A stretch of 46,385 bases of DNA. Origin: Oligosphaeraceae bacterium (GTDB lineage Bacteria > Verrucomicrobiota > Lentisphaeria > Oligosphaerales > Oligosphaeraceae). Numbering within the stretch: the first letter of the stretch is position 1; each line of letters opens with the position of its first letter. A program made the translations under genes and the position numbers. A model generated the notes under the pieces. That model ran no database searches and was not told the origin of the DNA. It saw only the letters and a program-made list of their open reading frames with translations. The stretch is taken from NCBI GenBank assembly GCA_012799725.1, contig JAAZKR010000046.1:1-46385 (forward strand), given 5' to 3'. Below are positions 30,814 through 46,385 of the stretch, in pieces.

Positions 30814-33009
30814 CTATTCCTTCCAGTGGGTGTTAATCGTTTTTTGTATTGCAAGCGCGGATCCGTCCGGTCGCTCGATCCTTCCGGGAATACTGTCCGG
30901 CAGTTCTGCCTTGAATTGGATTTTCCCGCTGACACGCTGCCATTCTATATTTATTTTTCCATAAATCGTATCATACGATGCGGTCATATTACTCAGAGAA
31001 GCGATCGGACGCGGCTTCAAGACGACTTCGCGAAAGCCCGGACGCGAGAAATCGGGCTCGATCCCGGCAGCATACTGCATCATCCAGGCAAAAAGATCGC
31101 CATACATGATATGATTGTGCGAATATTTTCCTGCAAAGTCTTCGCATAGAGTGGTTTCGCCGTCACGGACCCATTTGCACCAGCCGGGATATTGATCTTG
31201 CGTGAAGACCTTGAATCCGTCATCAGCATATCCATGTTCCGCAAGAACACGGGGGACAAACTTTGCGCCAACAATCCCGAAATCGGCAGTATGAGCATCT
31301 TTCCGGACGCTGTCAAGGAGCATTCTAACAGCGTTAGCGGCCTCTTTTCCGTTGCAGAATCCAAACTGCACAGCCAACGCCAGCGCAGTTTTTTCATTGT
31401 TGGCATAGGAACCGTTTCCGTTGGAAAATTCTCGGTTGAACGCGTGAAAAACTTGTTCCGCCAGTTCTGAATAACGTTTGACATCTTCTTCATAACCAAA
31501 GAGTCTTGCGGCCTCGACAAGCATCTTCAGCTCGTGATAATACCATGCCGTAGTTGGCAGTTCCGGAACGACTGCCCGTTCTGCAAACGGGTGCATCCAG
31601 TCACCAAGACCGAACCTGACAAGGTGTCCCTTCGCCAGGCTTTTCGTAAAAGCAAGTGCACGCTTGAAAGGCTCGTAGTTTTCGCGCATGGGAACCGCAT
31701 CACCGCGGTAGATATAAATGTTGCGCGGTATCCCGAACAGGATGGTATCGAACATGGTGCCGCTGCCCCAGTTGTAGCCCCAGCCAGAGGTCGGAGCCAT
31801 ACCGGGGAGCTGTCCATTCGGGCGCATGCAATCACGAATTGTCCCGAGCCATTCCCGATACGTTTCCTTGCCATCAAAGAAAAAAAGGCCAGTATCTGAA
31901 GCAAGCTGTGCATCGTTCATCCAGCCATTCTTTTCACGATGTGGACAATCGGTCGGGATCCCGACAAAATTATTGAGATAGGACCAGTAAGTGCATTGTT
32001 TCAGTGCATTCATATCGGGGTCAGAACAGGTGAAATCGCCGACTTGTCTGACATCGCTGTGAATTGCTTGTGCGGTCATTGAAACGAGTTCCGCGTCGCC
32101 GCTGATCTCCACCGCCACATAACGAAATCCGTGATAGGTGAAATGCGAGTGCCAGACTTCCGTTGCCCCTCCTTTGAGCGTGTACCTTTCCGTCTGAAAT
32201 TCGCCGCTTTTGATAAATCGGGCAATATTATCGAGACAAAGTGTTCCATCCGGGTTCAAAACATCACCGTACTGAATTTTGATGCAGCTTCCGGCTTTTC
32301 CTCGGACTTCGATCTCGGCACGTCCGGCGAGATTCTGCCCAGCATCCCAAATGCCGCATTCGAGTTTGTGCATGGGAAATGTGCGGGTAACACGGCATGG
32401 CGCGGAAGTCTGTTCATATAGAATCCCCCCCGGTCCAGCAGTAATAGTGGCATCTTGCCATGAGGAATCATCAAAGCCGTTCTGATCCCAGCCGGGCATT
32501 TCGAGCCGGGCATCATAATATTCCCCGTTACGAAGTGAATCGAATACAATAGGACCATTGGTCGTGACTTTCCAGGTATGATCACTGGCAAGGATCGTTT
32601 GCCCGTCCGCAATAAGTTCCGCAATCATTTTTGGATAATCGCGCCAAGTAGCCTTATCGAAATGCCATACTTCGGCTGTTTGGCAGTTATAGAGGCCATT
32701 CCCAAGCGTAACGCCAATCGTATTGCGCCCAGAAACAAGATGGCCGCTAACATCGTGCACGAGATATCCTGCATGAGCATCGTACTTTGCCTGTGCTGGC
32801 GCCAGCTCGAAGTCACTGACACGGCGACCATTAATCCTGACTTCATGAAAACCAAGTCCGCAAATATAAAGTTTACAGTCTTTAGGCTCCGCTATTTCAA
32901 ATTCTTTTCGGAAATATGGAGCAGGAAAGTTTTTTGCGTTCCAGTCTACCATGGTTGCGCCAAATGATATCCAGTACGCATGCCAAACTCTTGTATCTGA
33001 AAACGACAT
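30814..33009 (-). CDS. Alpha-L-rhamnosidase, GH78 family
   Basis: A 731-residue protein without a signal peptide, removing terminal alpha-L-rhamnose. The N-terminal beta domains carry FRKEFEIAEPKDCKLYICG and GFHEVRINGRRVSDFELAPA, the fold that precedes GH78 barrels. The (alpha/alpha)6 barrel begins near residue 325 and its acidic triad is complete: Asp354, Glu359 and Asp366 in IPTDCPHREKNGWMNDAQ, at the spacing known for GH78 (D-x4-E-x6-D). A later RFGLGDWMHP block and the C-terminal sandwich with PGFREVVLKPRPI are also family traits. ATG 33009 follows GGGAG; a TTG 9 bases earlier is less likely. It is downstream of the LacI gene, same strand. Confidence 0.92.
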   Translation of the reverse strand: MSFSDTRVWHAYWISFGATMVDWNAKNFPAPYFRKEFEIAEPKDCKLYICGLGFHEVRINGRRVSDFELAPAQAKYDAHAGYLVHDVSGHLVSGRNTIGVTLGNGLYNCQTAEVWHFDKATWRDYPKMIAELIADGQTILASDHTWKVTTNGPIVFDSLRNGEYYDARLEMPGWDQNGFDDSSWQDATITAGPGGILYEQTSAPCRVTRTFPMHKLECGIWDAGQNLAGRAEIEVRGKAGSCIKIQYGDVLNPDGTLCLDNIARFIKSGEFQTERYTLKGGATEVWHSHFTYHGFRYVAVEISGDAELVSMTAQAIHSDVRQVGDFTCSDPDMNALKQCTYWSYLNNFVGIPTDCPHREKNGWMNDAQLASDTGLFFFDGKETYREWLGTIRDCMRPNGQLPGMAPTSGWGYNWGSGTMFDTILFGIPRNIYIYRGDAVPMRENYEPFKRALAFTKSLAKGHLVRFGLGDWMHPFAERAVVPELPTTAWYYHELKMLVEAARLFGYEEDVKRYSELAEQVFHAFNREFSNGNGSYANNEKTALALAVQFGFCNGKEAANAVRMLLDSVRKDAHTADFGIVGAKFVPRVLAEHGYADDGFKVFTQDQYPGWCKWVRDGETTLCEDFAGKYSHNHIMYGDLFAWMMQYAAGIEPDFSRPGFREVVLKPRPIASLSNMTASYDTIYGKINIEWQRVSGKIQFKAELPDSIPGRIERPDGSALAIQKTINTHWKE

Positions 33010-33186
33010 GACACACAACTCCCAAAAAAGGTCGAAAACAGTTAATAACCTGCTGGTTTTTTAGCATATTATGAGTTAAAAACAAAATTTCGCTCACCAA
33101 CAAGGTTGTCAATGCCTAAATTTAGGCTGAGTTGTGAAGAAATCAACTCAAACGGTGTTTTTGTCTTGACCGTTGGATGAGCACCT

Positions 33187-33402
33187 TTATTCGCTCCCTG
33201 TGCAAGTACTGCTGCAAGCACCTGAACAGGCGCTGTGCATTATGAATGTGCATATAATGTCGGCAACCTGTACAAAGAGACAATAGTTTTGCCTTGCGAA
33301 TCCCCTTGTGCCGAACGCCTTCTCCAGTGAAAGCCAGTGGTGCTTCTGTACGTCGAATTGTTCCTCAATGTTAACCTGCAGATAATGTTTTGCATCCTGC
33401 AA
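33187..33402 (-). pseudogene. Likely C-terminal remnant of a DDE transposase
   Basis: A 71-codon frame between the LacI and GH78 genes reads HYLQVNIEEQFDVQKHHWLS then LEKAFGTRGFARQNYCLFVQ and VADIICTF. The order IEExFxxQK..LExAF..xxxxNYxLxxQxAxII is the C-terminal part of IS4/IS1634-type DDE transposases (the final catalytic Glu region). A one-base shift near 33240 would continue as AQRLFRCLQQYLHRERIKVL, supporting decay by frameshift. The N-terminal two thirds and inverted repeats are not seen, so it is a fossil. The match is by eye. Confidence 0.45.
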
Positions 33403-33405
33403 CTA

Positions 33406-34428
33406 TCAAACCTTATGACAGCAGGATTCGCCAAGGATCAATGAACCTTCGACAAATATCTCGTGGAGTGGCGGTGATTCAACAGGAATGTTGTTGATGA
33501 TGACACGTACCGCCTCACGGGCGATTTCTGCAGGATTATTGTCCATCACGGAGATCGACGGCTGCATTGCCTGACTTCCTTTCCACGACTCCATGCCAAT
33601 AATAGAAACGTCCTCCGGGACGCGAAGACCACGGCTGTTCAGCAGGCGGATCGCCCACAAAGTGGCATTGCCATTACCGATTATTAGCGCATCTGGTCGC
33701 ATCGGAAGCACGTCGTCAAGAAGCTCGGTCATCAATTCCAGGGTATCGCATTCGCCTATGTCACCGCAGTAGATCTGCGCCTCGTCAAAGGGGATACCAT
33801 GTGCCAGATGAGCGTCGCGGAAAGCACGGGCACGCGCCATGGCATCCGGGGTGCGATAGTTGGATTTAACGTAAATGATTTTCCGCCGGTTCAACGAAAA
33901 AAGATAATCCATCGCTTTGCGAAAAGTTCCATGATAATCAGGGGAGACAAAAGAGAACTTCTCGTCAGTTGCCGGTTGACTAATGAAAAGTGGGTTTTTG
34001 AATGGCTTGAAAAGCGGTGGGACCTTCTCACTGAATTCGTAATAATGCGCCATGCAAATTACGCTCTGGATGTCATATCCAAGAAAATCATCCACATAGC
34101 TTTTGATAGCGTCAATGCTGTCATGCATCAGACCGACCTGTAGCCTGTAGCCTGCTTCGCGAGTGAGCTGCTCGATACAGCTTAAAATATCACTGTAAAG
34201 CCTGCAACACTGACTGTCAACGATGAGTCCGATGATGTCCTGCTTTCTACTCGCCAGGCGTTGCGCCATACGATTGGGGCGGTAGCCTAGTTGTTCAGCA
34301 ATCTTTTGAATGTGCAGCGATTTTTTTTCGCTGATCTTGGTAGTTTTCCCACCACCACCGTGCAGCGCCTTAGACGCCGCAGATCGTGAAACCCCAGCAG
34401 CCTTTGCTACATCAGAAAGTGTTATCAT
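33406..34428 (-). CDS. LacI-family transcriptional regulator of the rhamnosidase loci
   Basis: A 340-residue repressor. Residues 1-60 are the LacI DNA-binding domain: ITLSDVAKAAGVSRSAASKA with the hinge helix YRPNRMAQRLASRKQDIIGL. The rest is a periplasmic-binding-protein-like sugar sensor (IGLIVDSQCCRLYSDILSCI, RPDALIIGNGNATLWAIRLL, EDVSIIGMESWKGSQ, the Ile-Gly-Met variant of the usual GFD). A longer start at 34545 was rejected because ATG 34428 follows GAGGATAACAAT and begins exactly at the helix-turn-helix. Its intergenic neighbour holds an AATGTACC..ACATT palindrome next to a promoter for the divergent operon, so it probably controls that operon and, by a matching site at 39201, the pseudopilin/DUF4091 operon. 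Confidence 0.9.
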   Translation of the reverse strand: MITLSDVAKAAGVSRSAASKALHGGGGKTTKISEKKSLHIQKIAEQLGYRPNRMAQRLASRKQDIIGLIVDSQCCRLYSDILSCIEQLTREAGYRLQVGLMHDSIDAIKSYVDDFLGYDIQSVICMAHYYEFSEKVPPLFKPFKNPLFISQPATDEKFSFVSPDYHGTFRKAMDYLFSLNRRKIIYVKSNYRTPDAMARARAFRDAHLAHGIPFDEAQIYCGDIGECDTLELMTELLDDVLPMRPDALIIGNGNATLWAIRLLNSRGLRVPEDVSIIGMESWKGSQAMQPSISVMDNNPAEIAREAVRVIINNIPVESPPLHEIFVEGSLILGESCCHKV

Positions 34429-34538
34429 ATTGTTATCCTCGCTACGGTTCTTGTTTAAGATAACTGCATTTTGGAATATTGTCACGCTTAACAAATGAGT
34501 CATAAGGGAAAAAAACTTTTCCCCACCCTCCGCCTCCA

Positions 34539-34585
34539 TTGACAAAAAAAGAAGAAAGCATTACATTTTAATGTACCGCGACATT
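34539..34585 (+). promoter_or_regulatory. Promoter with LacI-type operator, GH78 operon
   Basis: TTGACA (34539-34544), 17 bases, TACATT (34562-34567), then AATGTACCGCGACATT (34570-34585), an imperfect palindrome whose outer five bases pair exactly. TACATTTTAATGTA is itself a perfect overlapping palindrome, so three ACATT/AATGT half-sites lie in a row. The same layout is at 39170-39216. The operator lies at the expected transcription start, about 240 bases before the coding start at 34819. Confidence 0.7.
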
Positions 34586-34818
34586 ATGGTTGTGACAATT
34601 TTTTTTCGAATATACAATTACAGTCGCCCACATATTCGCGGAACATCTTTTGAGAAGTTAAAAAAGTCTCCATCTCTTCATTTGGGTTTTACATAAAAAC
34701 GAGCGGGCGATAGCACTATAGTTTGAAAAAAGTGGCAATTTCTGCTTCAAGTGGGTAAAAATCTGAATCTGCGGCAAACTTCAAATACCAACCTTTTTCC
34801 CGACGAGGATAGAACGAA

Positions 34819-36363
34819 ATGAAACTTTATGCGACGGTGGATTTTGCTGATGAGATTATTGCATCGATCTGGACTCCGAAACGTTTATTGAAATATTTTA
34901 AATTGATCCGCTCCAAAGGGATCACACGGCTTTACTGGATCGACCAGCAGGAAATCATGGAGCGCTGCGGCAATGACGAAATCAATGCTAACATGGTCGC
35001 AACAATTCAGAATTTTTCCGGACGCATCCACGAAACGGCAGTGCAGCTGGCACACGAAGCTGGACTCGAAATTTTCGTTCTGATCAAACCCTACGAGTGT
35101 GGGCTGCTCGCTCCGGCGTTGTCAGATGATGCCATAAAGCGTCCTCATCTTCCGGTTGCCGGTGGCATCTGCGACCGCTTCACCAGTTTTGCAAAGAAGC
35201 ACCCTGAAGCGATGCTTCAGCGCATACCGGTTCCAATGCATGGTGAAGCGGCAGTTTTGACACTCCTCTTTTCGGCGCCGCTTGTCAAAAGCGGATTGGT
35301 ACGGCTGTGGGCGTCAGAAACGAATTGCAATTATCAATTAATCGAGGAAAAAAGCGTTCCAGCAGGGTTTCAGGAGATCAGTTTTACTCGCCCAACAGGC
35401 AAAAACTTTTTTGTTTTCCAGAGTGCTGACCTTGCCAGCGGTAATACCTATGAAAAGATCATTTCCATCAGCGATACCGAGGAACGTCCGGTGCCATTCT
35501 CGCTGGGAATTCAGCCCAAGCGGCGCTACGTACCGATCAAGTCCCACTTGGAACACCGCCCCAAGCCCTGCGATGACGGTGGATTTAAGAAGATGGGGAT
35601 GTTGTTCGATTATTTTCCGGGTATCCCGTCGGGACTTTATACCAGCAATCTGCCCCCAAACTGGTACTTTGATTTTGCCAATGCCACTGAAAACGCATTG
35701 GGTGTGTCCTTAGAGATCAATGACCGCATTGTCGGTTTCCCGGATCCGACACATCCGGCGCATTACGAAAGCATTCGCCAATGGGTTGAGCGTGATTTGG
35801 CCATGGGCTTTGACGGCCTGGATGTACGGGTTTCCAGTCATAGTTCGCCAATCTTCTGGCGCGATTATGGCTTTGGCTCCGAGGTGCGGCGCACCCGCGG
35901 GGAGGCTCACAACCAATTGCTGCGTATGATTTCCAAACTAGTGCGCGCTGCAGGAAAGGTGATGAGTGTTCACATCGAAGATTTTATGTATGACTCAACG
36001 CCGGAACTGCCCTCTCCTATGGAATTTTTCTGGGATTATCACCGCTGGATCAACGAACGACTGATGGACGAAGTAACTGCCAAGATGATCTTTACCGATG
36101 GTCTTTTGGCGGCAAACTTTGCGCTGGCGTGCGAGTGCCGTGCCGCCGGGATCAAAGTCAATACTTGCCCATTTTTGCACAATGTTTCGCAGCCGCTGGT
36201 TTTTGCATCGTGGTCTGCGCAGGCCGGAATTGAGGCGTTTAACATCTATGAAACAGCGACGGTCTGGCAAGCTGATGCGGAGGGTGACGGCATTGCCGAG
36301 ATTAACCCGGCGATGTTGAAACAGCTCTGCCGTATTACGGAAATCGAGGTGCCTGAATGTTAA
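34819..36363 (+). CDS. Unknown TIM-barrel-like protein coupled to GH78, candidate new glycoside hydrolase
   Basis: A 514-residue cytoplasmic protein (no signal peptide); family not recognised. The N-terminal part (1-110) has LLKYFKLIRSKGITRLYWID and AVQLAHEAGLEIFVLIKPYE, beta-alpha units like those of a TIM barrel. A beta-rich insert spans roughly 135-255. The C-terminal part has MGFDGLDVRVSSHSSPIFWR, GKVMSVHIEDFMYD and CRAAGIKVNTCPFLHNVSQP, again barrel-like with acidic and histidine residues at strand ends. It is the first gene after the LacI-type operator and its stop overlaps the GH78 start by 7 bases. A glycosidase or isomerase acting next to rhamnosidase is inference. Confidence 0.6.
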   Translation: MKLYATVDFADEIIASIWTPKRLLKYFKLIRSKGITRLYWIDQQEIMERCGNDEINANMVATIQNFSGRIHETAVQLAHEAGLEIFVLIKPYECGLLAPALSDDAIKRPHLPVAGGICDRFTSFAKKHPEAMLQRIPVPMHGEAAVLTLLFSAPLVKSGLVRLWASETNCNYQLIEEKSVPAGFQEISFTRPTGKNFFVFQSADLASGNTYEKIISISDTEERPVPFSLGIQPKRRYVPIKSHLEHRPKPCDDGGFKKMGMLFDYFPGIPSGLYTSNLPPNWYFDFANATENALGVSLEINDRIVGFPDPTHPAHYESIRQWVERDLAMGFDGLDVRVSSHSSPIFWRDYGFGSEVRRTRGEAHNQLLRMISKLVRAAGKVMSVHIEDFMYDSTPELPSPMEFFWDYHRWINERLMDEVTAKMIFTDGLLAANFALACECRAAGIKVNTCPFLHNVSQPLVFASWSAQAGIEAFNIYETATVWQADAEGDGIAEINPAMLKQLCRITEIEVPEC

Positions 36364-38687
36364 ACAAATCGCAATGGATCAGTTGCCCCGGACTTCCCGA
36401 AAAGGGATGTGTGGTTTTCTATGCCCGGAAGCGCTGGCAACTTGCAGCGCTTCCCGCATCGGCGATGCTGAAAATCAGTGCCGATAGCCGTTTCCGGCTC
36501 TGGATCAACGATATATTCGTAGGTTCAGGACCGGTGCGCGGCTCGACCGTATTAAATTTTCATGAAGTGTTTGAGATCGCGCCGCTGCTTCGCATAGGCG
36601 AAAATGAGTTCTTTGCCGAGGTTTGGTCACAGCGCGAAGAGAATTTTGTCTTTCATTCATTAGAAGCTGCATTGTGGGCAGAAGTGCGGGGAATGTTATA
36701 CAGCGCTCCCGGCGATGGTTGGGAGGTAAAACCAGCGCGCGGTTGGCGCAGCGATGTGCCCCATTACACCTTGCAAAGCGGCTTCATGGAGTGGTACGAC
36801 TTTCGCGAAGAGACGCAACCTGAGTCATGGTGCCCTGCCATAACAGCAAGAAACCACCAGCTCCTCGCGAAAAAACTTTTACCGAACCCTTTGCCCGCTT
36901 TCCCAGAATCATCACTACGTCCGGTGGAGGCGCTTTCGTGGTACGCAGTAGGCCCGCTGGACATTTTTGACGCGCATCGCATCCCCGACGTTCTATCCGA
37001 AGAACCACACATGGCGCTTTCTCCCGAACGGATCGTAAATCCCAGTGCACTTTTCAGCGGCAAAGGTGCTGTTATATTACGACCCGGCGCACCCGGAGAG
37101 GGTTTGGGCGTAATCCTCGATTTTGCCTCAGAAGTCTCCGGCCGTCTGGAAATCGAACTGGATGCACCTGCAGGAACCACGCTCCAGATTGCTTACGGCG
37201 AAGCTTTAAGCGGCGGTCGCATCGCCACCAAATTTTCCATGGATTACCATTTCACCGATGCATTTATCCTCAAAGATGGACGTAATCTTGTCACTACTGC
37301 CTTTTCTGAACGCGGCTTCCGAATGGTCGCGATTTCAATCCGAAACTTTGATCGACCGATTCGACTGGAGCGTGTAAGCGGCATAAACCGCCGCTATCCT
37401 TTTATGAAACGGGGCTCTTTTTTTTCCAGCGATTACCGCTTGAACCGTATCTTTGAGGTGTGTACGGAAACCTTGAGCGCCTGCGCTTCGGACGTTTTCA
37501 TGGATTGCCCATGGCGGGAACGCGCATTCTGGGTCAATGATTTGCTGGTCAACAACCTGGCAACACTGCACTGTTTCGGTGCGTCGGAACTGCACCGACA
37601 CTGCCTTGAACTCGCGTTTTCGCAACCGCACCCGTCAGAATTGCTTTCGGCGGTGGTACCGATGCCAAAGATGGCAGGACAGTGCGATTTTATCTTCGCC
37701 CCGACCAATCTTTATATGATGCTGATTCTTAAAGATTACTGGCACTTTTCCGGCGATGATGCAACAGTACGGCGCTATCTGCCTGACATTGAACGCATAT
37801 TCAATGCGATATGGCGTTTGGCGGACTCTGACGGCATCCTCCGCACCTCGGGAGTCACCGCCGAATGGAACTTCTATGACTGGAGTTTCGAGGAAAACCA
37901 TCTTTGCTGCAACAACGCCGGCGAGTCGATGCTCAGTTCGCTCTACCTTATCGCCTCCAGTACCTTTGAAGAAGTGGCCACAGCACTCGGGCATGACTTT
38001 GACCGCAGCGAATTGCAGCGGCGGCGTGCCTTGACCGCTCGGAACTTTGAAACGCGTTTCTTTTCAGAGGAAAGCGGACTAATCGAAGACGAACTGCGCT
38101 CGACTGACGATCTAACACCAGTTAAACGTTCGACTCAACTGGCGCACGCATTATGGCTCCTCACCGGCGAGGCATCACCCCGCGTTGCCGAAATCTGCCG
38201 CAAAGCTATTTCCGATGAATCGCTCCTAAAGCCTGATTACTATTTGCACTACTTCTGGTTCCAGGCCGCCGCATCAGCAGGAAAGGCACAAGAAGCGTTA
38301 GATCGCATCCGGCGCTACTGGGGACGCTGTATTGATACTGGCTCGCCTACTTTATATGAGGCCGGCATCCACACCTTCGGCAAACAGGCAATGGATGGTT
38401 CCGGCAGCCTCTGTCATGCTTTCGGTACTATTCCGGTGGCGTTCCTACACGAAGTGATCCTAGGCGTCAGAGCACTTGCACCGGGTTTTCGTGAATTTTC
38501 TTTTGCACCTAATCGATTCGACCTTGACTTCGCCGAAGGGCGCATTCCGGTTCCCGTTCCAAGTGGCTGCATTCGCGTGCGGCTCACTGTGGAATACACG
38601 GAGTTGACGGTCCCAGCTGGCTGCACAGCAGTGCTGCCAAACGGTGTGCGGCTCAATGCCGGATTTCATAAATTGAAAGCAACCTAA
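36357..38687 (+). CDS. Second GH78-like alpha-L-rhamnosidase
   Basis: A 776-residue protein, no signal peptide. The acidic triad of GH78 is fully kept: Asp383, Glu388 and Asp395 in DCPWRERAFWVND. N-terminal domains include ISADSRFRLWINDIFVGSGP, the galactose-binding-like module, and LDFASEVSGRLEIELDAPAG before the barrel; the C-terminal sandwich has APGFREFSFAPN. The conserved IPTDCP start of the motif reads FMDCPW here, so it is a divergent member compared with the protein at 30814. Its ATG overlaps the stop of the upstream unknown gene, so the two act as a pair on the same glycan. Confidence 0.85.
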   Translation: MLNKSQWISCPGLPEKGCVVFYARKRWQLAALPASAMLKISADSRFRLWINDIFVGSGPVRGSTVLNFHEVFEIAPLLRIGENEFFAEVWSQREENFVFHSLEAALWAEVRGMLYSAPGDGWEVKPARGWRSDVPHYTLQSGFMEWYDFREETQPESWCPAITARNHQLLAKKLLPNPLPAFPESSLRPVEALSWYAVGPLDIFDAHRIPDVLSEEPHMALSPERIVNPSALFSGKGAVILRPGAPGEGLGVILDFASEVSGRLEIELDAPAGTTLQIAYGEALSGGRIATKFSMDYHFTDAFILKDGRNLVTTAFSERGFRMVAISIRNFDRPIRLERVSGINRRYPFMKRGSFFSSDYRLNRIFEVCTETLSACASDVFMDCPWRERAFWVNDLLVNNLATLHCFGASELHRHCLELAFSQPHPSELLSAVVPMPKMAGQCDFIFAPTNLYMMLILKDYWHFSGDDATVRRYLPDIERIFNAIWRLADSDGILRTSGVTAEWNFYDWSFEENHLCCNNAGESMLSSLYLIASSTFEEVATALGHDFDRSELQRRRALTARNFETRFFSEESGLIEDELRSTDDLTPVKRSTQLAHALWLLTGEASPRVAEICRKAISDESLLKPDYYLHYFWFQAAASAGKAQEALDRIRRYWGRCIDTGSPTLYEAGIHTFGKQAMDGSGSLCHAFGTIPVAFLHEVILGVRALAPGFREFSFAPNRFDLDFAEGRIPVPVPSGCIRVRLTVEYTELTVPAGCTAVLPNGVRLNAGFHKLKAT

Positions 38688-38938
38688 AAAACTGGATCTA
38701 CGACGGTAGATGTAAAGCCTTTTTAACCTGGCACGGGCTGACGCCTACAACCTATTTTTAACCACGACCACTTGAAATGGCAGGAATTTTTTATGGTTGC
38801 TCCGACGAAGGTTGTTGCCTCGACGGATGAAATGGCACTTGAATTTGCGGTCTAATTTGTTGGTTTCTCCGACGGATCGGTCAGATCTGCATAATACTTT
38901 GCGCCGTAGTCGCTTAACCCTAGACTTTAGCCTAGAAT

Positions 38939-38978
38939 GAAGACCCCACCCAAAGACAGTGCCTTGTAAAGGTACTAC
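38939..38978. repeat. CCCCGCCCAAAA / GCCTTGTAAAGGC repeat, copy 2
   Basis: GAAGACCCCACCCAAAGACA then GTGCCTTGTAAAGGTAC and TAC. It aligns along its whole length with 10577-10615; the hairpin is kept with a G-T pair in place of a G-C pair. Confidence 0.6.
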
Positions 38979-39169
38979 AATCAGTCGGAAAAGTCAGATA
39001 AATGATTATGTGCCAATGACTTGAAGATCACTTTTTAAAAATCTTCCACAAAAACAAGAAGTCGAGTGATAGTAACATAAGGTATCATGCAGAAACAGGA
39101 CAATTCCAGAAAATCACAGCTATTCCTGATCCTGAAAATACGCACTATAAAAACTTTTTCCAGCAGGAC

Positions 39170-39216
39170 TTGATTTTTCGGTTTAATAGCTTACATTCAT
39201 AATGTACCGGTACATT
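39170..39216 (+). promoter_or_regulatory. Promoter with perfect LacI-type operator, pseudopilin/DUF4091 operon
   Basis: TTGATT (39170-39175), 16 bases, TACATT (39192-39197), then AATGTACCGGTACATT (39201-39216), a perfect 16-base palindrome with central CG as in LacI-family operators. The ACATT-CAT-AATGT half-site pair overlaps it, giving the same three half-sites as at 34562-34585. Transcripts would have a leader of about 215-255 bases. Confidence 0.75.
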
Positions 39217-39462
39217 GCGCCTGTGTTTCAACTCTGGAGGCATGCGTTCATTGGCTTGCATTGTTTGTTTTACGATGCGACAAATCATGCTTTTTTTCAG
39301 TTAAACGCGCGTATGATTTATTTTGAAGCAATTGAGACGATTCCATAAAGCATTTTATAGGAATTTAATATATTTTTCAAAACGGAGACGGAAAATTACA
39401 AACATAAAGGAAAAATAATGCAACGAAAATCATTCACTCAACTACAATATGAGGAAAAAACA

Positions 39463-40173
39463 ATGAAACGTGGATTGTTCACCTTGATTGAATTGCTTGT
39501 TGTCATTGCGATCATCGCGATACTCGCCTCCATGCTGCTGCCGGCCTTGAACAAGGCACGTACGAAAGCACGTAAGATCAACTGTCTATCCAACATCAAA
39601 GCGCTGACCCTTGCCTCGATCATGTATACCGATGACAACGACGGATATACGGCTGCTGTTTTCTGCGACAGACCTGCTGGCCAGCGCTGGTGTGTTGAGT
39701 TATACAGCAAATACATCATGAAGGATACTAGGGTTTTCCTCTGTCCGTCTAAACCACAGTCCAAGTGGGATAAAAGCGATTTCTGGACAACTGGCAACAT
39801 CGGCTACGCAGTTCCTCGCGGTATTGTGGGCTGGAACCCTAGCGGAAACAACGGTGAAGGTCAGAAATGCACACAGATTGGCAGGCTGAAGAGCACGACT
39901 GCAATTATTGGCGAGGGTCTTATCCAGGCTGAAGGCGGCAATGAATACTCCATCTGGAACGCCGGTGAATATGGTGGTATGGCGCCCACGGTTATGATCC
40001 TCACTGGCGCATCAACCTCCTATCCTATTGATGATACACGCCATGAAGGCGGTGCTAACTTCGGTTTCGTTGACGGTTCCGCAGCATTCCTGGCAACAGC
40101 CCAAATCAAGACCGGGCACCAGACATACTTCAGACCTATATGCTTCGGCGGCATACATCGCGAAATCTGGTAA
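39463..40173 (+). CDS. Prepilin-type protein at the head of the DUF4091/CBM9 operon
   Basis: A 236-residue protein from ATG 39463 (leader MKRG, then [20 protein letters not shown] and [20 protein letters not shown]). It has a [13 protein letters not shown] block and the C-terminal H-x(n)-DG signature in [20 protein letters not shown] start 45 bases upstream at 39418 also has an AAGGA site and would add a 15-residue leader; the inner ATG, behind GAGG, gives a normal prepilin leader. Only 22 bases separate it from the DUF4091/CBM9 gene. Its near-identical N-terminal pattern to the protein at 23925 fits a paired role with secreted glycan enzymes. Confidence 0.82.
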
Positions 40174-40195
40174 AAATTCAAAGGGGAAACAACTC

Positions 40196-43009
40196 ATGCA
40201 GGTATTTAGAATCCATGTGTTCGTCCATGCCATACTATTCAGCTTGGCAGCGATAGCCGCGCATCCTTTTGCAATTCTCGACAAAGAAGCTGATGGCATT
40301 GCAAAGATACGCCCTGTGTTTGTCATGTCCGAGGCTTTTTCGCAATATAGGCCAGACGAGCAAGCAGAGTTGCGTGGATTCTGGGCAACTGCTGTTGACC
40401 TGAATATGAATTTGTCGAAGGAATTCAACTGGGCTGCACCAACGCTGAATAACACCATGCAGCTGCTGACTGCCCAAGGTGATTATACATGCGCGGCATT
40501 CTCCGTGTTTTTTGCCAAAGAAGCTCCCAAACTGGAAATTATTTCCAGTGAACTGAAAAGTCGAAATCATGTCATTCCAGTTTCTGAAACCTGTGTGTTA
40601 CAGATTTCGCCGGCAAAATCTGTTCCACGTTTTCCCTACTGCAATCTGATGTGGGAACCAGTGACAAACGATATGAAACCTGGCGATCAGCTCAATCTGG
40701 TCTATATGGTCAATGTTTCAGCGGACACCCCCGCAGGTCTCTACAAAAGTCAGGTTACACTTGTTGCAAATGGTCAACAAATGGCTCTGAATGTGGAATT
40801 ACGTGTGGCGGATTTTACTCTGCCGGAGTGCGGTAATTTCGGATTCTTTCTGAATGGAAATCTCTATCAGCCAAGAGACGGTTACAACTGCAACCAAAAA
40901 GCCTTTGTTAAGGAAAATCTCAAGCTGTATTTCAATTATTTTAAGACACGCCGTTTCAATTCTATTTCAATTTTCGACAATCTTCCAGACTTGCGCTATA
41001 TAGATGGTAAAGTCACAGGCAATTTCAGCGACATGTCAGCGATTGCAGCCGCCATGAACGCCAGCGGTTTGAAAGGCAAGCTACTTATTGACCTACGTGA
41101 TATCGGCTATTGGTGCAACGCAGTTGCCATTAAATTGGAAGAGTTGGGCAACAAGGTGACGGCAGGTGACCTAGGCGTTACTATGGTACAACGTAAGCCC
41201 AGTATAGAGCCATATCCGGAAAAAGCAAAAGAACTATATGCTGAATCAATCCGCCTGCTTATTGCCCAGGCAAAAGCAGAACATTGGCCGGATATTAGAA
41301 TCTTTGCAGATGAAGAGCTGGGCAACCAATTCCCGCTAAAAATCAATAACTATGAGTGCTTTATGCCCGTTATCATGAAAGAGTTTGCTGAATATGCCGC
41401 TGTCATTGACAACGGCATTGGCTGGGGACGGAAAACAGCAACCGAATACGCCGCACGAGACCAAGTTCGTCACAGGCAGTATAACAGCTGGACAGAAGAA
41501 GCCTTGGCAAATGCTGAGGCGGAAAATGCTGAGGTCTGGACGTTCAATTACGCAACCTCGAGGCTGGCAAACGGCTTCCTGCAAAGTCGCATGAACTCAA
41601 AAGGACATCACCAATGGGCGGATCTTTGGGATGCGAGCAATTTCCAGTGGCAGTTTACCAGGCTTTCGCCCAAAGGAGTAGTCACCTCACTAAATGCCGA
41701 ATGGATGCATGAAGGCTGTGTTGACTACGCGGCCTGTGAATATCTCAAGACCTTGATCGCAGAATGCGAAGCGGCTGGAAACACTACTCTGGCGGCAGAA
41801 GGCAAAGCAGTCCTTGCTGAGATTTTCCGTGATCTGTCAGTTAACCACACAACAGCCCAGAACTATGGGCAGATGATGCCGAATTCGGCGCTGTCTGCCT
41901 GGCGGTGGCTGGTTTTCCAGGCAATTGAAAAACTGCAGGATGGCCATTTCACGGCCGCCACAGTTGGAGATGGCAAGCCGTCCATGCGCCTTGAACCGAC
42001 AAAACAGATTACAGTTCCCAACAATGACTATATTCTGAAAGTGAAGAATATGGATGGAATATTTCAGGAAACCGCAGAAACACCCGAAGACTTCTGGAGT
42101 GAATTCATCGGCCCGTTCTCACATCTGACAGAATACGAAGCGCAGCTCCGTGCATTCTGCAGCACCCCCGAGGAATTCAAGGCAAAGAATGCCCCCAGCT
42201 ATACGATGGCACGCGTGGCCAGCATTCCGGCTGGTCTGGCGATCTACACCTATGCAAATCACGTTCAGCCAAAGGATCCCTACCGTTATGAGCGCCAAGA
42301 TGACGATGGCGATATGTGGCAGGATGACTGCATCGAATTTTTCTTCGGTTTCCCCAACGGCAAGCACGCACATCTGATGTATAACTCAGCAGGCAAAAAG
42401 ACATTTTTCTATGGAGGCCAAGTTATTCCTGCCGAAGACAAAATCAAGAGTTTCATCAAGTCACCGATCAATGTGACTGGTGGAACAATCAATAAAATGC
42501 TTATTCCGTGGAGCTATTTTGGTCTGACTTTGCAACCGCTCCCCGGAACAGTCTGGGAATTCAATGTGGGACGTGAAATGCACACTTTCCGTACCCCGAC
42601 TGAGGCTCCGATGAGCTGGGCGCGCCTGGCAACAAGCTTCCACGAGCAAGATAAGTGGGGAAGACTGGTCTTTACTGGCAGCGATGGCGTCTCAAACGTA
42701 AAGGCAGAGCCATCACTGATGGTTGAACCCAGCCTGGCCAAGATGGTTACTGTTGGTTTGCCGTTCCCTTTCAATATGGAAATCCGAGCCGATGTGCAGA
42801 TACTGAGCCTAGATGTCACCCTCGTCCATGAGGACGGCACGGAAGTCGCCCTGGAGACAATCAAGGCACCGGTTGGCAGCTCACGGCTTGTCATTGAAAC
42901 TGCGGGCCTGAAACTAGGCAGCTGGACGCTTTATCCTCGAATCTCCCAAAAGCCAGTTGCTCCATCCAATGTAGTCTCATTCAGAGTTGTGGATTCACCT
43001 TGGAAATAA
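40196..43009 (+). CDS. Secreted DUF4091/GH123-like protein with CBM9-like domain
   Basis: A 937-residue protein with an N-terminal hydrophobic signal (RIHVFVHAILFSLAAIAAHP). Residues about 150-215 (VSADTPAGLYKSQVTLVANG, LNVELRVADFTLP) match the beta-sandwich found before the GH123/DUF4091 barrel, and the barrel covers about 220-600. An Asp372-Glu373 pair in IFADEELGNQ is where GH123 enzymes have their Asp-Glu pair (assignment by eye). Residues about 615-820 form a carbohydrate-binding CBM9-type sandwich (DDDGDMWQDDCIEFFFGFPN, then MLIPWSYFGL). The start was set at 40196 behind AAGGGGAAAC; the open frame upstream overlaps the pseudopilin gene and is a shadow. Likely a cell-surface enzyme acting on a hexosamine-containing or rhamnan-type glycan; substrate unknown. 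Confidence 0.78.
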   Translation: MQVFRIHVFVHAILFSLAAIAAHPFAILDKEADGIAKIRPVFVMSEAFSQYRPDEQAELRGFWATAVDLNMNLSKEFNWAAPTLNNTMQLLTAQGDYTCAAFSVFFAKEAPKLEIISSELKSRNHVIPVSETCVLQISPAKSVPRFPYCNLMWEPVTNDMKPGDQLNLVYMVNVSADTPAGLYKSQVTLVANGQQMALNVELRVADFTLPECGNFGFFLNGNLYQPRDGYNCNQKAFVKENLKLYFNYFKTRRFNSISIFDNLPDLRYIDGKVTGNFSDMSAIAAAMNASGLKGKLLIDLRDIGYWCNAVAIKLEELGNKVTAGDLGVTMVQRKPSIEPYPEKAKELYAESIRLLIAQAKAEHWPDIRIFADEELGNQFPLKINNYECFMPVIMKEFAEYAAVIDNGIGWGRKTATEYAARDQVRHRQYNSWTEEALANAEAENAEVWTFNYATSRLANGFLQSRMNSKGHHQWADLWDASNFQWQFTRLSPKGVVTSLNAEWMHEGCVDYAACEYLKTLIAECEAAGNTTLAAEGKAVLAEIFRDLSVNHTTAQNYGQMMPNSALSAWRWLVFQAIEKLQDGHFTAATVGDGKPSMRLEPTKQITVPNNDYILKVKNMDGIFQETAETPEDFWSEFIGPFSHLTEYEAQLRAFCSTPEEFKAKNAPSYTMARVASIPAGLAIYTYANHVQPKDPYRYERQDDDGDMWQDDCIEFFFGFPNGKHAHLMYNSAGKKTFFYGGQVIPAEDKIKSFIKSPINVTGGTINKMLIPWSYFGLTLQPLPGTVWEFNVGREMHTFRTPTEAPMSWARLATSFHEQDKWGRLVFTGSDGVSNVKAEPSLMVEPSLAKMVTVGLPFPFNMEIRADVQILSLDVTLVHEDGTEVALETIKAPVGSSRLVIETAGLKLGSWTLYPRISQKPVAPSNVVSFRVVDSPWK

Positions 43010-43201: not shown

Positions 43202-44194
43202 TCAGGAATTTAGTTTTACTGAGACACCGCCCCCTTTTTCGCGAGCTTTATTGAAAGCTTTTGCGGCAGCGCTGACATCATGAGCACCCAGGCCAACCAA
43301 GACGCAGAGGATCTTCTCCTGATCGGAACTGCGTCCCTGCGCCTTGCCGGCAACTATGCTCCCAAGCTCAGGAGACAACGAAGCTTCCGGAATTTTGTTC
43401 TGCTCGACCAAGTTTTTAATTTCACCACGATGTGCGGCCTGTCCCGCACTGTCAACAACGATTTTATCGAAGCTGAGCAAGGCATCGTCTTCTGCCTGCT
43501 GGTATGAGCCCATTCCCAGCATCAGCACGCCGGGCTGTAGCCATTCCTTGCGTATGAATGGTTTTGCAGCGGTAGTCAACAGCACCACGACATCGGCCTT
43601 GCTAACAGCAGCGGCGGCATCAGTCGTTGTCTGCACCTGAATTCCGTATTCGCCAGCCATGGTTTGCTGGAAGGCGACCAAGCGTTCGTTGTTGATATCC
43701 ACGACAGTCAGCTCGGCTTTCGGCGCCACCTGATGGATGCAAACAGTCGCGGTATGACCCTGCGTTCCCGCGCCAACCATGGCAATGCGTTTTGTCTCTT
43801 TCCTGGCCAGATATTTTACTGCAATGGCAGCTGATGCACCGGTACGCCAGTCTGAAATATAAGTACCATCCAAAACGGCCAAAGTATCTCCGTTTTTAGG
43901 GCTGGTCAACACCAGCAGCCCGCGAATATAAGGCATCCCATTTCCAGGATTTTCCGGGTAGCCGCCCACCCACTTAATGCCAGCGGCGTGTTGCGATACC
44001 AAGAAAGCCGGCATTGCGTTGTTCCAAGAATCCGAACCGCTCCGAGACATGTCCAAATGAATTTTCGGAGGCATCACCACCTGCCCAAGCCCCCAATCCC
44101 TAAATACCGCCTCTACAATCCCATTAAATTCCGTGTATGGCAACAAGGCTTTTATCTCACTATGCCGAAGAATAAGCGTCTCGGATTTGCTCAT
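43202..44194 (-). CDS. Ornithine cyclodeaminase/mu-crystallin family protein
   Basis: A 330-residue NAD(P)-dependent enzyme. Family marks are KWVGGYPENPGNGMPYIRGL with the substrate-binding region, LDGTYISDWRTGASAAIAVK with the catalytic Asp-Trp-Arg-Thr block, and the Rossmann motif IAMVGAGTQGHTATVC. Family members are ornithine cyclodeaminases, alanine or imino-acid dehydrogenases and ketimine reductases; the reaction here is not decided. ATG 44194 follows AGGAGG and was preferred over an in-frame start 18 bases earlier. It is the last of the minus-strand genes at this end and is not in an obvious operon with the ATPase-TOPRIM pair. Confidence 0.85.
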   Translation of the reverse strand: MSKSETLILRHSEIKALLPYTEFNGIVEAVFRDWGLGQVVMPPKIHLDMSRSGSDSWNNAMPAFLVSQHAAGIKWVGGYPENPGNGMPYIRGLLVLTSPKNGDTLAVLDGTYISDWRTGASAAIAVKYLARKETKRIAMVGAGTQGHTATVCIHQVAPKAELTVVDINNERLVAFQQTMAGEYGIQVQTTTDAAAAVSKADVVVLLTTAAKPFIRKEWLQPGVLMLGMGSYQQAEDDALLSFDKIVVDSAGQAAHRGEIKNLVEQNKIPEASLSPELGSIVAGKAQGRSSDQEKILCVLVGLGAHDVSAAAKAFNKAREKGGGVSVKLNS

Positions 44195-44212
44195 GTTCGT
44201 CCTCCTGATCAA

Positions 44213-44248
44213 ATTGTACCAATTGAAGCTTTCTTGAACCGTAGAATG
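44213..44248. repeat. Direct repeat flanking the ATPase-TOPRIM cassette, left copy
   Basis: TTGTACCAAT..TTTCTTGA.CCG.AGAATG on the plus strand. The right copy is at 46290-46324. About 29 of 35 positions agree. Between them lie only the ATPase and TOPRIM genes. On the minus strand both copies can be read as related short peptides, ILRFKKASIGT and ILRIKKFPIGT, so the repeat may derive from a coding sequence. Confidence 0.55.
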
Positions 44249-44269
44249 TTTTCGTAAAAACGCTCTACG
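44240..44269. other. Imperfect hairpin downstream of the TOPRIM gene
   Basis: CGTAGA and TCTACG pair at the base, then a two-base mismatch and a GTTTT/AAAAC stretch. No T-run follows on the minus strand. It overlaps the end of the left direct repeat. Confidence 0.35.
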
Positions 44270-44284
44270 ACTATACCTGCGTGG

Positions 44285-44902
44285 TCATAAGAAAAACAGT
44301 TCCTTTAACCAGTTGATGAAGTTTTTCGCGGCGTTGGCTTTCAGGTATTGTGCTTTGATAGCCGTGCCGAAAGGTTTACCCGGCTCTTCCTGCCAAGCGA
44401 GCCATGTGTGGATCAATGCCTTGGACTTGTCCTTGTCCGCAAACAGCTGGTGCCCTTCAGGAATGTTGTCGATGCTATGTTCAGCATGGTCGAGCAATTC
44501 ATTCGGTGTTGGCACTAGTAAACGCAGAAAGTCTTCCAGAATGCCGTTGCTTCGATTGTCGGGCATCAGCCATATGCCGACCTTGGGTAGCAATGCATCT
44601 GCTGGCGGGGGAAGAATAGTTCCCAGAGGTGCAGGAGTCTTCGGAGCAGTATATCCAGCGGCGACCAAGTGGTCACGCAGGGAGTCCCAACGCGCCTGCA
44701 TGTTTGTGTCAGCATCTACAAGAATGCCGAGAGCCTTGACATCGCTGCCTTTGAGCTGGACAGGTAAACTTTCGAGCAACTCGGAAATGCCGCCAAGGTT
44801 CTTGATCTCGTCGATTCGCCCAAGATTATGATAATCGCAGAGATGCTTCACGACATGTTCGTCGTCGGTGCCTTCCACCATGAGTATATTTTTACTTTCC
44901 AT
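44285..44902 (-). CDS. TOPRIM-domain protein, DUF3226-like, partner of the upstream ATPase
   Basis: A 205-residue protein. The TOPRIM fold is visible as NILMVEGTDDEHVVKHLCDY with Glu10, and LGILVDADTNMQARW with Asp63 and Asp65, the acidic set used by TOPRIM nucleases to hold metal. The C-terminal half contains AKNFINWLKELFFL and a helical region of unknown role. Such single-TOPRIM proteins (DUF3226, DUF4435-type) are often encoded beside AAA ATPases related to OLD nucleases, as in the PARIS defence system (AriA/AriB). The ATG lies 2 bases after the ATPase stop, so the two are translated together. Nuclease activity is inference. Confidence 0.75.
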   Translation of the reverse strand: MESKNILMVEGTDDEHVVKHLCDYHNLGRIDEIKNLGGISELLESLPVQLKGSDVKALGILVDADTNMQARWDSLRDHLVAAGYTAPKTPAPLGTILPPPADALLPKVGIWLMPDNRSNGILEDFLRLLVPTPNELLDHAEHSIDNIPEGHQLFADKDKSKALIHTWLAWQEEPGKPFGTAIKAQYLKANAAKNFINWLKELFFL

Positions 44903-44904
44903 GG

Positions 44905-46032
44905 TTAGCGCACCTCAATTCCATCGCGTGTTGCCACGGCGAGTTCATCTTTCTTGAAGAGCGTCGGAATGACGGCGTCGCCTTTGCGGGATAGTCGTAC
45001 AAGGGCAACGTCTTCAGTGGTTTCAGCAGCCGTTTTCTGGAACGCCTCGATAGCATCCCAACTGTGAGACGTGGCGAAGACTTGTACGTTCAAGTTTTTA
45101 GCCAGGCGAAAAATGGCTCGCCAAACATCCGGTTGCACAGTATGGTGCATCCCATTCTCGAACTCGTCGATAAGTAGTAGGCCATCTTTGGCGTTCACCA
45201 GCGAAAGTGCGATGCTGAAGAGCCGGTTCAGGCCGTCCCCATATGAGCGAAGAGGGAGAGGACGCTGATAGTTTTTTGACCGAACAATGGCAGCCCGAGA
45301 CCGGCGGGGGTCGTTTCCACCGACCATCGAGACGGCAAATATACTTGGATCAATGATCTGGAGCGCATGAACGACCTCTTTTTCGCTGTCGGAAAGCGCG
45401 ATGTTGTCCCAAAGTGCACCAAGATTAGCGGTGCTTTCGCCGCCATAGGGGCTGACATAGACGCACTGCAGCAGAGGTTTTTCGCCGAACATAGAACGGT
45501 ATGATCTATTACTACTATAAGGGAAACGCTGGAAGAAGGATACCAGCGAAATTTCACGCGTTCCATTTGGTGACTTGATCACCAGCGCAGGCCAATTTTC
45601 TCCTAACAGTTTGGGGAGCTTCAGGTCGATTTGGTCGGATTGGGTCTGTGACCTCGTTAGCCACTCGAGCTGCAAAGTCAACCCAAAACCATGTTGCTTG
45701 CCTTTCGCTTTTATCTGGATTGGTTTGAAATCCTTGATAGATTGCGGAAAACCGGCAAAGAGACTGGCAAGCCAAAGCAGCGTATCAGCTTCGTTCAGAC
45801 GCAGGGAATCCGCCATATTGTCGACATTTTCTTCCCGATAGCTCAGAATACTGGAGATGACGGACGGGTCTGCATTTGAGCTTAAGATGCGAAGCGCCTC
45901 TAATATGGACGACTTACCTGTATTATTACGGCCAGTGATCAGGTTGACTCGCCCCAATCCCTTGACAGAGAAGTCCCGCAACGCTCGGAATCCTGAGACC
46001 GTAAGTTCAGTGATGCTTGGTTTCTGTTTCAT
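44905..46032 (-). CDS. OLD/RecF-type AAA ATPase of an ATPase-TOPRIM pair
   Basis: A 375-residue ABC-type ATPase of the AAA_15/AAA_21 (OLD, SMC-like) group. Walker A GRNNTGKS at 34-41 with Lys40, ABC signature-like LRSYGDGLNRLFSIALSL at about 261-278, Walker B GLLLIDEFENG with Asp289 and Glu290, and the switch His323 in FATSHSWDAI are all present. The C-terminal TOPRIM domain that OLD nucleases carry is missing; the downstream gene supplies it as a separate protein. ATG 46032 starts MKQKPSITELTVSGFRALRD, the family N-terminus; a TTG 12 bases upstream is possible. Likely an NTP-driven sensor of a nuclease system. Confidence 0.85.
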   Translation of the reverse strand: MKQKPSITELTVSGFRALRDFSVKGLGRVNLITGRNNTGKSSILEALRILSSNADPSVISSILSYREENVDNMADSLRLNEADTLLWLASLFAGFPQSIKDFKPIQIKAKGKQHGFGLTLQLEWLTRSQTQSDQIDLKLPKLLGENWPALVIKSPNGTREISLVSFFQRFPYSSNRSYRSMFGEKPLLQCVYVSPYGGESTANLGALWDNIALSDSEKEVVHALQIIDPSIFAVSMVGGNDPRRSRAAIVRSKNYQRPLPLRSYGDGLNRLFSIALSLVNAKDGLLLIDEFENGMHHTVQPDVWRAIFRLAKNLNVQVFATSHSWDAIEAFQKTAAETTEDVALVRLSRKGDAVIPTLFKKDELAVATRDGIEVR

Positions 46033-46385
46033 TGCAGCTCTCAATTAGTGTGTTGCATTATATACCACTTCTGGGTGACCGTGGCGCAGCTGACATGCAC
46101 GTGCCGAATCCTCCATCGCGTCGCTCCCCATGGCAGTATGGTGTAAAATATAGCATCTGATGCAACGACTGCAATTGTTTGTTAATCGTCCGGCGATATG
46201 TGATATGGTACACCCCAAAGTTAACTTTTCCGTGGTTAAACAACTTTTTGTCCAGGGCTAATAATGTGAAAAAACAGAAAAACTGGTGTTGTACCAATCG
46301 GAAATTTCTTGATCCGCAGAATGTCAGACCCATACTATAACTCTGAATTTCACCTGCTTCACCGTGCATATCACAGGGAGTAGGA
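46033..46385. other. 353-bp region upstream of the ATPase gene, window end
   Basis: It holds the right direct repeat (46290-46324) and AT-rich stretches (TTGCATTATATACC near 46052, TATGTGATATGG near 46197) that could be promoter elements of the ATPase-TOPRIM operon. A minus-strand frame (46058-46369) has no recognised content. No other gene is seen before the window edge. Confidence 0.45.
46290..46324. repeat. Direct repeat flanking the ATPase-TOPRIM cassette, right copy
   Basis: TTGTACCAATCGGAAATTTC and TTGATCCGCAGAATG. Partner of 44213-44248. The two copies enclose a segment of about 2.1 kb that holds only the two-gene cassette and its upstream region. Confidence 0.55.

Follow-up and report, generated by a model that had tools for sequence, protein, structure and literature searches.

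Two-gene defence systems that pair an ATPase with a separate Toprim-related effector are represented by AbiL and PARIS. In PARIS (AriA/AriB, proposed as class 4 of the OLD family), a hexamer of AriA holds AriB, a tRNA-cutting Toprim nuclease, until it is triggered (PMC12409363). PARIS is detected by AAA_15 and AAA_21 matches of at least 32 and 27 bits, respectively, and AriB is defined by DUF4435 (PF14491) (PMC9122126). In AbiL-like pairs the Toprim-type effector is toxic and is neutralized by its AAA ATPase partner, and type I restriction operons are known to include RloB-type proteins (PMC10440598). The PDC entries of PADLOC, among them PDC-M38, are unpublished or putative defence candidates nominated by guilt-by-embedding and are mostly without experimental validation.

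The cassette and its bracketing repeat

The analysed stretch of DNA, referred to here as the window, comprises 46,385 nucleotides from an Oligosphaeraceae bacterium. The following features lie at its right end.

43202–44194, minus strand: ocd, ornithine cyclodeaminase/alanine dehydrogenase family (OCD_Mu_crystall; PF02423, 2.2e-64)
44214–44249, no strand: left (downstream) copy of a 36-bp direct repeat, in the ocd leader, 35 bp past the Toprim stop
44285–44902, minus strand: predicted DUF3226 Toprim nuclease, 205 aa (PF11536, 2.3e-67; PDC-M38B, 170 bits)
44905–46032, minus strand: ABC-type (SMC/Rad50/OLD-like) ATPase, AAA_15/AAA_21, 375 aa from ATG
46259–46385, no strand: 127-bp assembly overlap with contig C302, identity checked
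46289–46324, no strand: right (upstream) copy of the 36-bp direct repeat, 256 bp before the ATPase start

The preliminary description of this DNA had reported two coupled genes, for an ATPase and a separate TOPRIM protein, and both open reading frames are indeed intact on the minus strand, with 2 bp between the ATPase stop and the Toprim start. The ATPase frame (44905–46044) extends to a TTG at 46044, the ATG at 46032 being the likelier start. The ocd gene is downstream of the pair, co-oriented with it and outside the cassette. On the other side, the right repeat copy is located between the ATPase gene and a prepilin-like gene on C302, which is on the same strand as the pair and ends about 75 bp before the repeat. 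C302 is most simply the continuation of the window, because the last 127 bases of the window equal one end of that contig (7977–8103, reversed) exactly, contig end to contig end. This overlap is a k-mer branch point of the assembly; the second branch, absent from the bin, may represent a strain variant close to the edge of the cassette.

No defence island is visible around the window's pair, which is surrounded by sugar-degradation and prepilin genes. A sugar-use region near the cassette (30814–43009) contains two alpha-L-rhamnosidases and a LacI-family regulator, together with a DUF1559 prepilin-like protein and a large protein without a Pfam match. The GC and GC3 values of the pair are ordinary, giving no sign of compositional foreignness, and consensus scans for promoters and terminators returned chance-level results. 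Since the window contains no tRNA gene, tRNA-linked integration was rejected.

We consider it probable, from the analyses below, that the two genes form an abortive-infection anti-phage pair of the PDC-M38 kind that works like AbiL and PARIS, and that the repeat is an old target duplication of the ocd leader. By analogy with AbiL (PMC10440598) and PARIS (PMC12409363), an oligomer of the ABC ATPase would hold the DUF3226 Toprim protein inactive before infection and would sense an infection cue. The triggered ATPase would then release or activate the Toprim protein as a two-metal nuclease, which may cut nucleic acid (tRNA or DNA) and so stop growth. The pair would spread as a unit, by way of plasmids and of chromosomal insertion. 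The defence activity, the sensing step and the substrate are what we infer from this analogy.

The bracketing repeat had been given as an imperfect one of 35 bp; it is real, and its length is 36 bp, with 30/36 positions identical (83%) in an ungapped alignment. The similarity ends sharply at these limits, and the ungapped score is 24, whereas dinucleotide shuffles of both flanks (n = 300) averaged 10.7 and never exceeded 16. The longest identical core is at most 10 bp, and about 20 bp separate the left copy from the start codon of ocd. Searching the whole genome with up to three mismatches returned the two cassette sites and one site on C302; the latter was rejected as a third copy because it is inside the exact 127-bp overlap and is thus the right copy again. 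A genome-wide repeat or IS end was therefore rejected, and the proviso that the repeat might be a common genomic motif falls away. Weak further copies at 34810 and 47978 were judged to be unrelated similarity. The repeat core motif, with up to two mismatches, was not found in 27 further family genomes and gave one chance-like match in another, and the repeat was absent from IMG/VR. Because no recombinase, terminal inverted repeat or genome-wide copies were found for the window's cassette, the bracketing repeat does not look like that of a transposon or an att site. Like the target duplications of related cassettes, it occupies the leader of the gene downstream, and it is best read as an insertion scar left in the ocd leader; the 17% divergence between its copies would make the insertion old.

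It had also been suggested that the cassette arrived or moved as a unit. The horizontal distribution of the family and the agreement of the repeat with a recurring signature (both below) bear this out for the family, whereas for the window's exact site we infer movement from the repeat, because no empty site was found. No empty allele of the insertion was detected in 28 other family genomes, which have no synteny with the window through the ocd orthologue (in genome G290), the left neighbour P0004 or the right neighbour P0005. The G290 orthologue is 86% identical to ocd and stands in a different genomic context without the cassette, and the DNA similarity of G290 to the window stops at 44210, beside the repeat. 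In a distant-mode search for polymorphic empty sites, the pair was absent from E. coli.

If the pair is an AbiL/PARIS-like defence unit, its repeat may still be unrelated to its arrival and represent a duplicated regulatory element, an operator or promoter piece present in two leaders. The confinement of the similarity to 36 bp would suit such an element, as would the drift of the copies to 83% identity, the position of the right copy 256 bp from the ATPase start and the TACAAT-like box in which one copy ends, just upstream of the ocd ribosome-binding site. However, a regulon would need more copies and none exists elsewhere in the genome with mismatches allowed, 36 bp is long for a single operator, and related cassettes are repeatedly bracketed by unrelated sequences. 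We regard this explanation as unlikely, though worth keeping in view, and prefer the old target duplication.

The two proteins compared with described systems

The ATPase matches the Pfam profiles AAA_15 (1.5e-23, 84.4 bits) and AAA_21 (1.6e-20, 74.9 bits), which puts it above both PARIS thresholds. Among 45 homologues, the Walker A motif GxN..GK, the Walker B residues DE and the H-loop H are invariant. Its AlphaFold2 model (pLDDT 87) matched the retron Eco7 and Ec78 complexes, Septu PtuA, Rad50/SMC heads and GajA in Foldseek.

The TOPRIM partner had been called DUF3226-like and distinct from the DUF4435 protein AriB, and the profile searches agree. DUF3226 spans the whole protein and is its sole Pfam match at E ≤ 0.1, DUF4435 being absent, and no match to AriB was found among the PADLOC models at E ≤ 1; neither RloB nor AbiLii was matched in either profile collection. 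A Toprim nuclease fold is expected to carry an E after strand 1 and a DxD after strand 3. The AlphaFold2 model (pLDDT 94.5) has the alternating fold, with E10 after strand 1 and D63/D65 (DxD) after strand 3. E10 is kept in 43/43 homologues, D63 and E123 in 45/45 each, and K161 in 42 of 45, with R in the remaining ones; D65 is not universal (35/45). In Foldseek the top matches of the model were OLD Toprim domains and retron Eco2, at weak values (best E 0.04); the OLD domains led with E values of 0.04–0.14, and PARIS and RNase M5 ranked lower.

Both proteins were compared with the PADLOC models. The best match of the ATPase was PDC-M38A (294 bits, 5.9e-88), ahead of AbiLi (220 bits, 1.4e-65, covering the full length) and AriA (86 bits), and the best match of the Toprim protein was PDC-M38B (1.1e-50). 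The two PDC-M38 subunit models are thus matched by adjacent genes, 2 bp apart, in the same order and pairing. Judged by its sequence, the pair is a real, intact member of the known defence candidate family PDC-M38, with the layout of AbiL and PARIS and, by its Toprim, with membership of neither; it is not unrecorded, because PADLOC PDC-M38 matches both proteins. While PDC-M38 is a guilt-by-embedding candidate, the window's pair stands among catabolic genes instead. The literature found reports no activity for PDC-M38, no phage challenge of any DUF3226 pair and no duplicated-leader bracket for PDC-M38.

The resemblance to AbiL extends from the two-gene layout of ATPase and separate Toprim-related effector to the genomic setting, in that one relative of the pair, locus L024, precedes an hsdR-like gene, just as RloB-type proteins occur in type I operons. 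The difference is in the partner, which is DUF3226 here and RloB/AbiLii in AbiL. A PARIS-like layout had been proposed for the cassette, and this holds for the split ABC ATPase and Toprim nuclease in a two-gene unit; the nearest family is nevertheless PDC-M38, followed by AbiL, with PARIS clearly further away. It could be argued that the pair is a true PARIS that responds to anti-restriction proteins and whose AriB is too diverged to be recognized, given the shared split layout with an AAA_15/AAA_21 ATPase, the presence of PARIS chains 8ux9 and 8v46 among the structure matches of the Toprim model and the restriction genes adjoining some relatives. Those structure matches are partial (78 columns, E 0.2), DUF4435 is unmatched, and AriA scores far below PDC-M38A and AbiLi on the ATPase, which makes this account distinctly improbable. 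Gabija GajA, a class 1 OLD protein, shares the ABC ATPase with Toprim chemistry and is among the structure matches of the ATPase model; however, ATPase and Toprim are fused in OLD classes 1–3, whereas they are on two separate open reading frames in the window, and no UvrD-like GajB is present beside the pair, whose neighbours are ocd and the prepilin-like gene.

Distribution and neighbours of related pairs

DUF3226 was found in 16/289 genomes of the phylum and in 17/387 in a second phylum search, which gained two genomes; it was not found in any other genome searched from the family to which the window belongs. Scanning of genomes yielded 34 DUF3226 loci, many of them in other phyla, the closest having 53–59% identity. 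The pairing is obligate in practice: among loci not truncated by a contig end, nearly all have the ATPase gene next to the Toprim gene, usually at a spacing of −4 to +5 bp. Distant family members gave alignments too diverse for a pattern search.

A tree of the concatenated pair is incongruent with taxonomy and places the window in a strongly supported clade that mixes Verrucomicrobiota, Planctomycetota, Armatimonadota, Latescibacterota and a Lentisphaerae genome. The simplest reading of this tree is that the pair has moved between phyla by transfer, with the proviso that MAG bins can mislead. More distant pairs are found on plasmids of Citrobacter (6.4 kb, mobilizable), Acinetobacter and Plesiomonas. 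Prophage or satellite origin was rejected, DUF3226 having no match in 50,697 phage records or in IMG/VR.

Genes of defence type stand beside the pairs of relatives, namely HmaB, a DUF1156 methylase, an hsdR-like gene and HEC-01, and they support a defence role, although none is present around the window itself. Directly after the ATPase–Toprim pair, two Latescibacterota loci carry a further AAA ATPase gene (L051, 6706–8450; L060, 6673–7917), accompanied in L051 by a small partner gene; these are probably the PADLOC candidates HEC-01A/HEC-01B.

A housekeeping role would cast the pair as a DNA-repair unit of a RecF/SbcC-like ATPase and a Toprim helper. The likeness of the ATPase to Rad50 and RecF heads is compatible with this, and an archaeal OLD-family ATPase serves the cell cycle and not defence, according to PMC12796447. 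A pair that is rare and patchy even inside the phylum, transferred between phyla and carried on mobilizable plasmids and beside restriction-type genes does not behave as such a unit. The sporadic occurrence also answers the concern that the pair might be fixed in all relatives, and we hold the repair role to be very unlikely. As a putative defence pair, it adds a Lentisphaerae-lineage member to a widespread candidate ATPase–Toprim family between AbiL and PARIS.

Direct repeats around related pairs

Bracketing direct repeats recur in the family. With 800-bp flanks and E ≤ 1e-5, they were detected at 7/45 cassettes against 1/317 control windows, which were drawn from the same loci, the window and two further loci (Fisher P = 2e-6); excluding the window and one member of a pair of related loci gives 5/43 (P = 1e-4). 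This excess needs an independent repeat, because the controls were unmatched to the cassettes in gene density and intergenic share and the hypothesis came from the same data set in which the excess was counted. The repeats of the relatives are unrelated sequences of 20–325 bp, and in most cases the duplicated DNA comes from the beginning or leader of the co-oriented gene that follows.

The cleanest case is L024, where 88 bp around the start of the hsdR-like gene are present before the ATPase gene and again directly after the Toprim gene; the hsdR-like gene that follows is intact (1125 codons) and was named from its N-terminus as read, not from a profile search. In two loci, L045 and L048, the Toprim gene is immediately followed by an intact DUF1156 methylase gene, and a collapsed fragment of that gene's 5′ end lies upstream of the ATPase gene (L045, 4719–4834; L048, 799–912). 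This collapsed fragment is common to a Hydrogenophilales and a Rhodocyclaceae bin. In L057 the duplicated part is a gene start that reads MTIPFVIDNQQ, and in L011 it is a leader that stops a few bases short of the next ATG, whereas L071 deviates in being flanked by tandem paralogues. A pair outside the 45, on the Plesiomonas plasmid (L092, 6856–8600 with flanks), is bracketed too, by a 119-bp repeat of 76% identity.

The closest known process is insertion with long, variable target duplication, described for restriction-modification genes (Nobusato et al. 2000, as covered in PMC1643837 and PMC3031569). In both cases defence genes without a recombinase of their own are flanked by long and variable target duplications; here, however, the insert is an ATPase–Toprim pair, and the window's copies are short, 17% diverged and without an empty allele to compare. 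A circular molecule with a homologous fragment, integrating by a single crossover, would produce the same trace, indistinguishable here. We tentatively suggest that ATPase–DUF3226 pairs may be minimal recombinase-free mobile units that have entered genomes many times over, each insertion duplicating tens of bp from the 5′ end or leader of the co-oriented gene that follows. If so, this would account for small defence modules embedded in restriction operons, and the window would be an old case at an ordinary locus. The excess of bracketing offers a testable entry route for two-gene recombinase-free defence units beside hsdR, DUF1156 or other genes. That the cassette is instead a mobile element with its own recombination site, its repeat being attL/attR of a recombinase acting in trans, would explain why a 36-bp direct repeat brackets an otherwise minimal two-gene unit, yet the lack of an identical core longer than 10 bp and the relatives' mutually unrelated repeats, mostly 5′ ends of the next gene, render it highly doubtful.

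Within the genus of L024, the search for an empty site found none and returned only the locus's own copies and the hsdR-start fragment. The Plesiomonas plasmid pair is a few kb from phage tail genes. The 87-bp hsdR-start fragment of L024 recurs at a second apparent type I restriction locus in genome G042, where it follows another gene and precedes an apparent transposase (copies at L090, 263–352, and L085, 1317–1403 and 3258–3346), as if this spot received several inserts.
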